Assembly (NCBI GenBank): GCA_011053145.1
Contig: DRLC01000063.1
Location: forward strand, 1 to 44,732
DNA: 44,732 nt
From: Planctomycetota bacterium
GTDB lineage: Bacteria; Planctomycetota; UBA1135; GCA-002686595
Reading direction: 5' to 3'
This document shows, in pieces, positions 4,960 to 19,351 of this stretch. The notes below the pieces were generated by a model. The model searched no databases and was not told the origin of the DNA. It saw only the letters and a program-made list of their open reading frames with translations. Numbering within the stretch: position 1 is the stretch's first letter; each line of letters begins with the position of its first letter. Position numbers and translations under genes: made by a program.

Positions 4960-4987
4960 TTGCCCATTGCGAAATCGAAGGTATGGT
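4960..4987 (+). promoter_or_regulatory. Putative sigma-70-type promoter of riboswitch transcript
   Basis: TTGCCC (4960-4965), a 16-bp spacer and TATGGT (4982-4987), each 4 of 6 to consensus. Transcription would begin near 4994, a few bases ahead of the riboswitch P1 stem at 5001, which is the expected geometry. Confidence 0.45.
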
Positions 4988-5000
4988 TCGTCGCTCCCAA

Positions 5001-5088
5001 CGATGACACGACAAAGGCAAACCGGCCGTGAGGCCGGGACGCAAAGCCACGGGACCCTCCGGGTCAGCCGAGCCGCCGAACGTCGTCG
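5001..5088 (+). promoter_or_regulatory. Cyclic di-GMP-I (GEMM-I) riboswitch aptamer
   Basis: The aptamer shows the conserved GEMM-I core: ACAAAGGCAAACC at 5011-5023, a CCGGCC-GUGA-GGCCGG stem with a GNRA tetraloop, GGGACGCAAAGCCACGGG at 5036-5053, a short GACCC-UCC-GGGUC stem and the closing AGCCGCCGAA. The outer P1 helix pairs CGAUGAC (5001-5007) with GUCGUCG (5082-5088), including one G-U pair, as expected of a folded RNA. The G that contacts one guanine of the ligand in the Vc2 aptamer appears to be retained (the AGGC context), which argues for c-di-GMP rather than cGAMP specificity; this position was aligned by eye. Such aptamers normally sit in the 5' UTR of motility, surface or secretion genes. 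Here no clear protein gene follows on the same strand, so the controlled output is unknown. Confidence 0.88.
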
Positions 5089-5118
5089 AACCCATCCAGG
5101 CGTCATCCGAGGGGCGAC

Positions 5119-5212: not shown

Positions 5213-5675
5213 TGGCACCTCCTCCCGGGACGGACGGCATCCCCAGCGAACGCCATGAGGATGTCGAAACGAAACGAGACTAGGCCCGCGATGGGGTGGC
5301 AGCCCGTGCATTGCCGCTGCACCCCCGTGAGGACTCGCATTCGGAGCGAGATCGGCGTTCGCCCCTTCACGTGCACGGACCCGCAGCCCCCCCGGGATTC
5401 GGTTCGTCCGTGCAGCGAAGTCGTGCCCTCCCCCGTCCGCCGGGACGTGGAAGGGCTGGAGAGCCGGGAGGGACGGGGAAGCTCGCCTCGAAACTTCCGG
5501 ACCGAGAATGTCCGCGCCGCCTCGTGGGGACTGGGCTGGCGCGGGCGCGTTGGAGGAGATGTTTCGTCGGAGGACGGATGGGGACCCGTACCTCCGGCAC
5601 CATTCCCGCTCGCATTCTCTTTGGGGAAGGAGAAGGCTTTGCCGCTTCGCTAGAAGTCGGCCTCAGCGGGAATCA
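5213..5675 (+). other. Stretch without a convincing gene between riboswitch and terminator
   Basis: The best open frame on the transcript strand is 5255-5653 (132 codons, ATGAGGATGTCG start, TAG stop 22 bp before the terminator). It has no Shine-Dalgarno sequence, no recognisable domain, unusual Cys/Trp/Arg content and a third-codon-position GC content visibly lower than the neighbouring genes, so I do not call it a gene. A shorter start at 5560 follows GGAGGAG immediately but has no spacing for a ribosome site. The minus-strand frames look like shadows. If the riboswitch controls a protein, it would be a small undescribed one in this interval. Confidence 0.3.
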
Positions 5676-5716
5676 CGAGGGTACGGGGCCGCACCCCGTA
5701 CCCTCGCCTTTTTTTT
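5676..5716 (+). terminator. Strong intrinsic terminator (plus strand)
   Basis: Perfect 13-bp stem CGAGGGTACGGGG/CCCCGTACCCTCG with loop CCGCA, then CC and eight T residues (5709-5716). The T-tract is only on the plus-strand side, so it stops plus-strand transcription, either from the riboswitch promoter or readthrough from kdsA. It lies 10 bp beyond the stop of the convergent sigma gene and would shield it from antisense transcription. Confidence 0.9.
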
Positions 5717-5725
5717 CGGGCCCCC

Positions 5726-6508
5726 TCAGTGTGCGCGGAAGCGATCCTTCAACCGCTCCAGAAGGCTGCTGTGGATCTTGCAGACGCGCGATTCGGAGAG
5801 GCCGATCAGGAGGCCGATCTCGCGCATCGGCAGCTCTTCCCAGTACTTGAGGTAGACGATGCGGTACTCCTGCTCGGTCATGCGCTGGGCGGCGAGGTGC
5901 AGGAGCTCCGTTCGCGTGAGGCGGTCCCCGGGGCTGTCCAGGCTGCGGTCGGGAACGACATCGAGGCCGTCGTCAGGATCCTCCCCCGCCGGTACGGATC
6001 CTGTCGGGGCCTTCGGAATCCCGATCCCGAACAGGAACTCGTAGTCGTCGTAGGAAAGCCCGAGGGCATCGGCGATCTCGTCGTCGATCGGCTCGCGTCC
6101 GAGTTCGGATCGCAGGCGCTCGACGGTGCGCTTTTGCTGTTCGATCCTGCGGCGCCAGGGTCGCGGCAGCCAGTCTTCACTGCGAAGCTCGTCCAGGAGG
6201 GCGCCGCGAACACGAGGCTCGGCGAACGGCTCGAAGGGTACCCCCCGCTCGGGATCGAAACTCGCGATCGCAGAGATGAGCCCCACGTTCGCGGCGGTCT
6301 CGAGATCGCCGCGGTCCACGGTTCGCGGAAGCCGCTGCGCGAAGCGCGCGACGATGCGCCGAACCAGGCGCTGGTAGTGCACGACGAGCTGGTTTCGGGT
6401 GTCGCTCGAGCGCGTCACCCAATAGGCCTGCCACAGTGGACCGCCGTCGTCGCGGTGGGTCTCCGGGTTGTTCGGTGAAGCCTGTCCGGCTTCCGCGATG
6501 GTTGCCAT
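5726..6508 (-). CDS. fliA: FliA/WhiG-type (sigma-28) RNA polymerase sigma factor
   Basis: A 260-residue group 3 sigma factor. Region 2 reads TRNQLVVHYQRLVRRIVARF and VDRGDLETAANVGLISAIASFDPERGVPFE, followed by RVRGALLDELRSEDWLPRPWRR, a segment diagnostic of FliA/WhiG. Region 3 has the ELGREPIDDEIADALGLS helix, and region 4 ends with MREIGLLIGLSESRVCKIHSSLLERLKDRF, the -35 recognition helix-turn-helix. These sigma factors drive flagellar late genes or, in some lineages, developmental genes. The start at 6508 is chosen because GGAGG lies five bases upstream; longer in-frame starts lack this and add non-homologous sequence. No anti-sigma FlgM or flagellar gene is adjacent. The gene converges on the c-di-GMP riboswitch transcript. 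The symbol reflects the family; a non-flagellar role is possible. Confidence 0.88.
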   Translation of the reverse strand: MATIAEAGQASPNNPETHRDDGGPLWQAYWVTRSSDTRNQLVVHYQRLVRRIVARFAQRLPRTVDRGDLETAANVGLISAIASFDPERGVPFEPFAEPRVRGALLDELRSEDWLPRPWRRRIEQQKRTVERLRSELGREPIDDEIADALGLSYDDYEFLFGIGIPKAPTGSVPAGEDPDDGLDVVPDRSLDSPGDRLTRTELLHLAAQRMTEQEYRIVYLKYWEELPMREIGLLIGLSESRVCKIHSSLLERLKDRFRAH

Positions 6509-16974: not shown

Positions 16975-19083
16975 TCAGGCCTCCTGGAGTGCCTGGCGGT
17001 GGGAGAGCTTCACCTTGCCGCGATCATCGACGTTGATGACCACGACCTCGATCTCATCGCCGACCTTGACGACGTCTTCGACCTTCTCGACGTAGCCTTC
17101 GGCGAGTTCCGAGATGTGGCACATGCCTTCGGTCCCCGGGAGGATCTCGATGAACGCCCCGAAGTCCTTGGTGCTCTTCACGACGCCCTTGTAGCGCGTT
17201 CCGATCTTCGGGGTTTCGGTCATGGCCTGAATCGTGCGCAGGCACTCCTCCACCTTCTCGCGGTCGAGCCCGGATACGGTGACATCGCCCTCGTCGTTCA
17301 GGATCGCGATGCGAACGTTGTACTGGGCCTGCATCGCCTTGATCGTCTTGCCGCCGGGGCCGATCAGGAAGCCGATCCGGTCCGAGGGGATCTTGATCAG
17401 CTCCATCGCGGGAGCGTAGCGCGAGACCTCGCTGGCCGGACGCGGGACCACCTCGAGCATCTTGCGCAGGATGTGCACGCGACCCAACCGGGCTCGCTCG
17501 AGGGCCTCTTCGAGGAGCTCCCGGGTGACGCCCTTGATCTTGATGTCCATCTGGATCGCGGTCACCCCGATCCCCGACCCGGCGACCTTGAAGTCCATGT
17601 CGCCGTTGTGGTCCTCGGACCCGAGGATGTCGGTCAGGATCACCTGGGTGTCCCCCTCCTCGATCAGCCCCATCGCGATCCCCGCGACCGGCTGAGCGAT
17701 CGGAACGCCCGCGCTCATCATCGAGAGGCAACCCCCGCAGACCGAGGCCATCGACGAAGAGCCGTTCGACTCAGTGATCTCCGACACGATGCGGATCGTG
17801 TAGGGGAACTTCTCCGAGTCCGGCAACACCGCGGTGAGAGCGCGCTCGGCGAGCATCCCGTGTCCGATCTCACGGCGGCCCGGCCCCATGATGCGGCGCG
17901 TTTCGCCGACGCTGTAGGGCGGGAAGTTGTAGTGCAGGTAGAAGCGCTTCTTGTACTCCTCCTCGATGCCATCGATGATCGCCTGGTCGTCCGGCGTTCC
18001 GAGCGTGCAGGACACCAACGCCTGGGTCTCGCCGCGCGTGAAGAGCGACGAGCCGTGCTGGCGGGGAATGAAGTCGGGGAAGATCGTGATCGGGCGCACC
18101 TCGTCGTGGGCACGGCCGTCGATGCGCGTCCCGGAGAGGATCATCGCACGCTCCACCGCCGACTCGAGGTCGTGGAACGCCCCCTTGACGGCCTTCGTGT
18201 AGGCCTTCAGATCGGCTCCTTCCTCGCAGTCCTCGAGCAGCGCCTCGACGCACTCCTTGCGGACCGCATCGACGGCCTCCTGGCGCTCGTGCTTGCCCTC
18301 GGTGCGCATGGCCTCCTCGAGACGCGGGCGGTAGGCCGCGACGGCCTCCTCCATCTGGCGATCCGGCTCGGGCGGCGTGAAGGGCATTTTCTCCTTGCCG
18401 GCCTTTTCGCGCAGCTCCTCGACCGCACCGATGATCGTCTTGATCGCATCGTGGGCCATCTCGAGAGCGTCGATGATCTCGGACTCGGGAAGCTGGTTGG
18501 CGGCTCCTTCGACCATCACGATCGCGTCCTTGTGTCCCGCGACGACGAGGTCGAGGTCGGACTCCACGCGGCGCTGGGTGTCCGAAGGCATCAGGCACAA
18601 TTCGCCGTCGATCTTGCCGACCCGCATCGCCCCGAGGGCGCCGTGGAACGGGATGTTCGACACGTGCAGCGAGGCGAAGCCGGCGATCATCGCGAGGATG
18701 TCGGCCGAGTGCTCCCCGTCGTAGCCGAAGACGCGCGAGAGGACCTGGACCTCCTGCTTGAAGCCGTTCGGGAACAGCGGGCGGATCGAGCGGTCGATCA
18801 GCCGCATCGTGAGGATCTCCTTGGTCGTCGGACGACCCTCGCGCTTGAAGAAGCCGCCGGGGATCTTGCCGGCGGAGTCGGGCTTCTCGCGGTAGTCCAC
18901 CGTGAGGGGGAAGAAGTCGAGGTCGTCACGACCTCCGGAGGTGCAGCTCGCGGCGAAGCACTGGGTCTCGCCGTAGGTCACGAGGACCGCGCCGTGCGCC
19001 TGGCGCGCCACCTGTCCGGTCTCGAGGGTCAGAGTCTTGCCGGCGACCTCACAGGTTACGCGTACGGGTTCTAGGTTCGTCAT
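16975..19083 (-). CDS. pnp: Polyribonucleotide nucleotidyltransferase (PNPase)
   Basis: Phosphorolytic 3'-5' exoribonuclease of the RNA degradosome, 702 residues. It has two RNase PH domains: the first with FPLTVDYREKPDSAGKIPGG and DRSIRPLFP, the second with GTRIDGRAHDEVRPI, SLFTRGETQALVSCTLG, RREIGHGMLAERAL and SEITESNGSSSMASVCGG. These are followed by a KH domain (IPSDRIGFLIGPGGKTIK) and a C-terminal S1 domain (GTRYKGVVKSTKDFGAFIE). The ATG at 19083 (MTNLEPVRV) gives the usual N-terminus; an upstream ATG at 19122 is less likely. It lies downstream of rpsO as in most bacteria, with 268 bp between, where PNPase autoregulation often acts. Confidence 0.97.
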   Translation of the reverse strand: MTNLEPVRVTCEVAGKTLTLETGQVARQAHGAVLVTYGETQCFAASCTSGGRDDLDFFPLTVDYREKPDSAGKIPGGFFKREGRPTTKEILTMRLIDRSIRPLFPNGFKQEVQVLSRVFGYDGEHSADILAMIAGFASLHVSNIPFHGALGAMRVGKIDGELCLMPSDTQRRVESDLDLVVAGHKDAIVMVEGAANQLPESEIIDALEMAHDAIKTIIGAVEELREKAGKEKMPFTPPEPDRQMEEAVAAYRPRLEEAMRTEGKHERQEAVDAVRKECVEALLEDCEEGADLKAYTKAVKGAFHDLESAVERAMILSGTRIDGRAHDEVRPITIFPDFIPRQHGSSLFTRGETQALVSCTLGTPDDQAIIDGIEEEYKKRFYLHYNFPPYSVGETRRIMGPGRREIGHGMLAERALTAVLPDSEKFPYTIRIVSEITESNGSSSMASVCGGCLSMMSAGVPIAQPVAGIAMGLIEEGDTQVILTDILGSEDHNGDMDFKVAGSGIGVTAIQMDIKIKGVTRELLEEALERARLGRVHILRKMLEVVPRPASEVSRYAPAMELIKIPSDRIGFLIGPGGKTIKAMQAQYNVRIAILNDEGDVTVSGLDREKVEECLRTIQAMTETPKIGTRYKGVVKSTKDFGAFIEILPGTEGMCHISELAEGYVEKVEDVVKVGDEIEVVVINVDDRGKVKLSHRQALQEA

Positions 19084-19351
19084 TCTTTGCTTTCGTCCTG
19101 CAGGCATCTGGCGCCTGCTCATCGTCTATGCGTGTGTCAGAGTTCTTTTCCGTCAGTCTTGTTCGTCGGCGAGGCGCACGGATGGCGCTCGCACTGGGAC
19201 CGCGCCCCACTCACGGGCGATCGAGGCGGCCCTGTTCTCCCCGGTTCGGACTCTCCTCCGAAGCGTGCGGCACGCGCGTCCCGGGCCGTGCGGCGCCCCG
19301 ATCGATCTCGGAGATGCCGTACCCGGGAGACACCGCGGGGACCACCGAGCC

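Follow-up and report, generated by a model that had tools for sequence, protein, structure and literature searches.

The window, that is, the whole stretch of 44,732 nucleotides that was analysed, belongs to a Planctomycetota genome of 400 contigs (GCA_011053145.1), the relatives of which include Planctomycetes bacterium Pla86. On its forward strand a c-di-GMP-I aptamer, single copy in the genome, stands at the beginning of an RNA predicted to be about 700-720 nt long, and the RNA runs towards a sigma-factor gene on the reverse strand (5726-6508). The promoter (TTGCC, 16-17 nt and GTATGGT, about 4960-4987) was missed by a generic sigma-70 scan, but the same block is seen in 31 of 32 homologous loci, and transcription would start at about 4993-4996, with 4994 taken for the length estimate. 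The RNA ends at 5716 in an intrinsic terminator (5676-5716), a 13-bp stem at 5676-5706 followed by T8 at 5709-5716, and of the 31 homologous loci long enough to test, 30 have a terminator at a distance of 587-902 nt from the aptamer start. A promoter in this place, and a transcript of about 700 nt running to a strong terminator, had been proposed in the preliminary description, and both are borne out by the homologues.

The aptamer itself (5007-5081) matches the Rfam model RF03167, c-di-GMP-I-GGC, with 63.8 bits (cut-off 59, E-value 6.8e-13 for the window) and RF01051, c-di-GMP-I, with 60.2 bits (cut-off 35). Both curated cut-offs are passed, and the covariance scores thus confirm the class-I c-di-GMP aptamer with a well-paired P1 that had been suggested. 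The P1 helix is extended by 7 bp, CGAUGAC at 5001-5007 with GUCGUCG at 5082-5088, contiguous with the P1 of the Rfam model, which explains the limits 5001-5088 first given to the aptamer. In the c-di-GMP-I aptamer the ligand is contacted by G20, A47 and C92 (PMC9049102). RF03167 is the best-scoring Rfam model for the aptamer of the window. The change that defines this model is a G variant within the consensus segment GCGAAGCC, which we take to be A47G. In the model alignment the window does not have this G and reads GCAAAGCC where the consensus has GCGAAgCc, and in our alignment to Vc2 the positions presumed to match G20, A47 and C92 carry G, A and C. By score the aptamer thus agrees with RF03167, by the variant base it does not, and by its letters the presumed A47 is an ordinary A, which makes c-di-GMP the most likely ligand.

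The 5' strand of P1 is also a possible switching strand, as it can pair either with 5082-5088 or with 5102-5107. The latter positions belong to GUCAUCCGAGGGGC (5102-5115), which joins the alternative partner to a purine-rich motif and is, the aptamer apart, among the best conserved blocks of the aligned loci. Both partners of the strand are kept at a minimum of 6 bp in 21 of 27 homologues, as compared to 27 of 162 control windows. It is conceivable that c-di-GMP selects between P1 (CGAUGAC/GUCGUCG) and the alternative helix GAUGAC/GUCAUC just downstream, and that the block is a putative expression platform, but we propose this strand swap as the switch only tentatively and would put it a little short of even. 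No early terminator was found close to the aptamer.

The predicted fold of the 715-nt RNA is much more stable than those of shuffled sequences (z -6.5), and three to four near-identical hairpins form a tandem array that makes up its 3' half. Hairpins B (5510-5546) and C (5567-5597) present the hexaloop UGGGGA at 5525-5530 and 5579-5584, and hairpin D (5615-5635, 9 pairs), found in a subset of the homologues, presents it at 5622-5627. Between B and C, about 25-27 nt past loop B, lies a conserved single-stranded linker, GGAGGAG (5552-5558), and several GGA motifs occur both in the hairpin loops and in the single-stranded linkers of the array RNA. The stems of B and C covary, with changes on both sides in 11 of 11 counted pairs (5/5 in B, 6/6 in C). 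Paired cells in the two hairpins amounted to 83%, as compared to 53% when shuffled (0 of 500 shuffles reached as high), and slid-partner controls brought them down to 28-50%. The distance from loop B to loop C is usually 50-55 nt although the sequence has diverged. When all possible hexaloops of well-formed hairpins were counted in 28 RNAs, UGGGGA came to 54 occurrences spread over 26 of the RNAs, where dinucleotide shuffles predict 0.6, and the runner-up occurred 11 times. A covariance model of B, linker and C (R1) has matches in 52 genomes of the family, with one extra weak match among the matches listed, and those in genomes with an aptamer sit at the aptamer locus, G068 excepted. In Rfam 15 the part downstream of the aptamer has no match over cut-off, the best being Scr4115 with 29.6 bits against a cut-off of 58.

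Between the aptamer and the array, a long-range helix pairs GCGAACGCC (5246-5254) with GGCGUUCGC (5354-5362), and several homologues have compensatory changes in it, for instance GGCGGACA/TGTCCGCC. It was absent from the aptamer-less RNAs that we read. Another long-range pairing, AGGGGC/GCCCCU, was rejected after inspection of the aligned loci by eye, which gave no compensating changes. An explanation of the RNA as regulatory accounts poorly for the roughly 400 nt that separate the aptamer from the array.

Pfam gave no significant match for any of nine ORFs from both strands, and an all-against-all comparison of the homologues gave no conserved ORF, in agreement with the earlier view that the transcript holds no convincing coding sequence. 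Over the RNA, two homologues (G019 and G085) share 87% identity with 22 gaps, mostly of 1-2 nt, and their substitutions are spread evenly across the three frame positions (27/36/33), without any 3-base periodicity. The array is almost identical between the two despite the gaps elsewhere in the RNA, and the spacing between the conserved hairpin loops does not preserve a reading frame. Taken together, the comparisons show the RNA to be non-coding. In three congeneric genomes (genus g23; L134, L212 and L214) a frame starting ATG-A(A/G)C-ACG-CCC spans the aptamer-less RNA, with many amino-acid changes, and this open frame is probably due to chance.

Most genomes of the planctomycete family to which the window belongs have a single copy of the unit of promoter, aptamer, RNA and terminator. 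The RNA is also carried by Pla86 (CP036296), a relative that is in culture. The aptamer was found in 57 of the 81 genomes of the family, one copy each, and in many genomes in the rest of the order; most of the genomes are metagenome assemblies, some of them incomplete, so that an absence from a single genome is weak evidence. Aligned loci conserve the promoter, the aptamer, the GUCAUCCGAGGGGC block, the long-range helix, the repeated hairpins and the terminator. Eight genomes of five genera (G005, G012, G020, G022, G035, G068, G076 and G077) have the promoter, the array and the terminator but no aptamer. Placed on the tree of the neighbouring sigma protein, the loss of the aptamer calls for some five changes, three or more of them forced by well-supported branches. 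The retention of promoter, array and terminator after aptamer loss is the strongest argument that the array is the functional output; comparison of these loci shows selection on the array independent of the aptamer, which would then be an add-on control. In G068 the array RNA lacks an aptamer, and an aptamer was observed on another contig, near the contig end (L188, G068:C85:171-246). The preliminary description had left two guesses, a small undescribed protein or a c-di-GMP-responsive regulatory RNA. The protein did not survive the lack of a conserved ORF, the indels that are not multiples of three and the loop spacing out of frame, while the covarying hairpins, the near-invariant loops, the promoter and terminator kept throughout the family and the hairpins that outlast the aptamer make it very probable that the RNA is regulatory and responds to c-di-GMP.

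The gene that the RNA faces encodes a sigma factor that scores 173 bits against TIGR02479, below the cut-off of 189.6, and by this score it is a divergent member of the FliA/WhiG type. In most genomes of the family the RNA converges on this gene, which ends a phoH-ybeY-sigma cluster. Eleven genomes of sister families (L099, L100, L102, L103 and L105-L111) have the aptamer in the 5' leader of a gene in the sense orientation, with a protein product that matches the window's sigma factor. Seven of them were searched genome-wide, and in these the aptamer-led gene came out as the best match to that sigma factor (34-37% identity). Among the eleven proteins, that of G049 (L100, 5246-6292) has a long N-terminal tail rich in lysine, alanine and serine. 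The pairing in both the family and its sister families suggests that aptamer and sigma factor belong together in two architectures. The RNA had been called an orphan riboswitch without an obvious target gene, and this was only half right: it faces the reverse-strand sigma gene in most of the family, and the best match of that gene is led by the aptamer in the sister families. Since the RNA has its ancestry beside this sigma gene, and the sister families have the match of that gene under cis control of the aptamer, the RNA most likely belongs to the lifestyle-switch circuit of the sigma factor. c-di-GMP is tied to a FliA/WhiG-family sigma factor also in actinobacteria, where the anti-sigma protein RsiG wires c-di-GMP to WhiG (PMC8325347), whereas here the connection would be a cis riboswitch in the sister families and, by inference, a separate RNA in the family of the window.

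All 154 genomes of the order have GGDEF domains. Flagellin is present in 38 of 42 aptamer-bearing genomes as compared to 9 of 19 others. Array RNAs persist in G005 and G022, both flagellin-less, which implies that flagella are not the whole story. In G039, where no flagellin was found, two aptamer copies (L101 and L112) lie upstream of genes that by eye look lipoprotein-like and pilus-assembly-like.

Our explanation is that this is a c-di-GMP-responsive, trans-acting, non-coding RNA with a protein-binding hairpin array, and we give it a probability of roughly 0.6. The aptamer would open the transcript and sense c-di-GMP, and the outcome of the switch may be a change in how much of the array is made, is stable or is exposed. 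The array would in turn trap an RNA-binding protein that recognises G-rich or GGA loops, much as CsrB/RsmZ or EutX do, so that c-di-GMP sets how much of the protein is soaked up, with a presumed effect on the sigma circuit. What leads us to a protein trap is the near-invariance of the G-rich loops on diverged stems together with the GGA linkers, as in RsmZ, and the riboswitch placed before hexaloops, as in EutX; by these analogies we consider sequestration the mode of action with slightly better than even confidence. Two lineages without the RNA still have the sigma gene, and this counts against the explanation.

Class-I c-di-GMP riboswitches (RF01051, RF03167) ordinarily act in cis on a downstream gene, whereas the aptamer of the window, although it passes both cut-offs, is followed by a non-coding RNA. 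The closest arrangement is that of EutX/Rli55, an RNA gated by a B12 (adenosylcobalamin) riboswitch that sequesters the ANTAR protein EutV (PMC5821096). There, too, a non-coding RNA begins with the aptamer, hexaloop hairpins serve as the protein trap, and the RNA can lie reverse to the genes of its circuit (PMC5821096). The differences are that the ligand here would be c-di-GMP and not adenosylcobalamin, that there are three to four hairpins, that no early terminator follows the aptamer, and that the loop lacks the A1 preferred by ANTAR proteins. Hexaloops bound by ANTAR proteins have an A1 and a G4 (PMC7496416), and UGGGGA has U1 and G4. An ANTAR protein is an unlikely partner from the loop sequence, which begins with U and not A; an ANTAR gene was found in 0 of 61 genomes, an absence that is weak as the control genomes gave no match either. 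With CsrB/RsmZ the array shares tandem hairpins and GGA both in loops and in single-stranded linkers, as described for RsmZ (PMC13287468), but here the entire hexaloop is near-fixed, a riboswitch aptamer is present, the RNA is about 700 nt as compared to 127 nt for RsmZ, and CsrA is missing from 60 of the 61 genomes searched.

An alternative to a protein trap is that the UGGGGA loops are repeated seeds of a base-pairing sRNA for UCCCCA sites in mRNAs, with c-di-GMP controlling the sRNA. Some base-pairing sRNAs do have repeated identical loops, and a loop that is almost invariant while its stems vary fits such a role. The conserved GGAGGAG linkers and the near-fixed spacing are better suited to protein binding, however, and UCCCCA was found in 1 of 29 leaders of the sigma gene where about 2.6 are expected, so that we regard base pairing as unlikely. 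With neither UCCCC nor UCCCCA in excess the sigma leader was rejected as a target; the count for CCCCA in the sigma leaders was 14 against 7. Flagellin leaders were also rejected, UGGGGA being rare there and a consistent hairpin not seen. Upstream of many of the flagellin genes (loci L075-L098), at roughly 100 nt from the start, stands a block resembling TCCGAGAAC that may be a -10 element of the FliA type.

The RNA could also be a cis-antisense RNA, lowering the sigma factor under c-di-GMP control by read-through or by 3' overlap with its mRNA. The convergent arrangement is tight in most genomes of the family, the matching sigma of the sister families is controlled by the same aptamer, and c-di-GMP riboswitches have a published tendency to antisense positions (PMC9943018). 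Against this, one genus (G019 and G085) has the RNA and the sigma gene on separate contigs, G093 has about 4 kb between them, and all three genomes keep the full RNA with aptamer and array intact, which suggests that the RNA probably acts in trans rather than through antisense overlap. The terminator is moreover strong and conserved, and overlap alone does not explain the UGGGGA loops. Antisense action is therefore improbable in our view.

A true CsrB/RsmZ-type sponge for CsrA would have the same look, with GGA in hairpin loops and single-stranded linkers, but it is very improbable and was ruled out as such for want of CsrA. CsrA (PF02599) was found in 1 of the 61 genomes searched, and neither in the source genome nor in any of 30 near-complete genomes, and a relaxed search with TIGR00202 gave none over cut-off, only weak partial matches, nearly all of them, G033 apart, inside large ORFs. 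These weak matches, often repeated within one protein, were taken for S1-like repeats. From this absence in 60 of 61 genomes, the source genome included, any binding partner of the array is by gene content not CsrA. The only clear CsrA among the 61 genomes is in G033 (L068, G033:C7:13638-13778), which also has the aptamer RNA. In the window, a 715-aa ORF on the reverse strand (16975-19122) with a weak partial match to the CsrA profile is probably an S1-like repeat protein. Least probable is the mRNA of a small protein under an ordinary c-di-GMP riboswitch, for although short ORFs exist, such as 5255-5653, and three genomes of one genus (G022, G076 and G077) keep an open frame across the array, it is contradicted by the lack of a conserved ORF, of a significant Pfam match and of codon periodicity, the last in the presence of numerous 1-2 nt indels.

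In the open-licence papers searched we found no earlier account of a trans-acting RNA with a hairpin array that is controlled by a c-di-GMP riboswitch. With the protein trap as the preferred reading, the RNA may be a family-wide, c-di-GMP-gated sponge for an unrecognised RNA-binding protein that takes the place of CsrA in planctomycetes without it, and may go back to a riboswitch that had cis control of a FliA/WhiG-type sigma gene and turned into, or joined, a separate trans-acting RNA; this wider scenario is possible rather than probable. The matching sigma factor of the sister families has this aptamer wired to it in cis, and the approximately five losses of the aptamer make up a natural experiment on how sensor modules are joined to regulatory RNAs. 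The array would also point to an RNA-binding protein in bacteria without CsrA, and could be the bait with which to find it.
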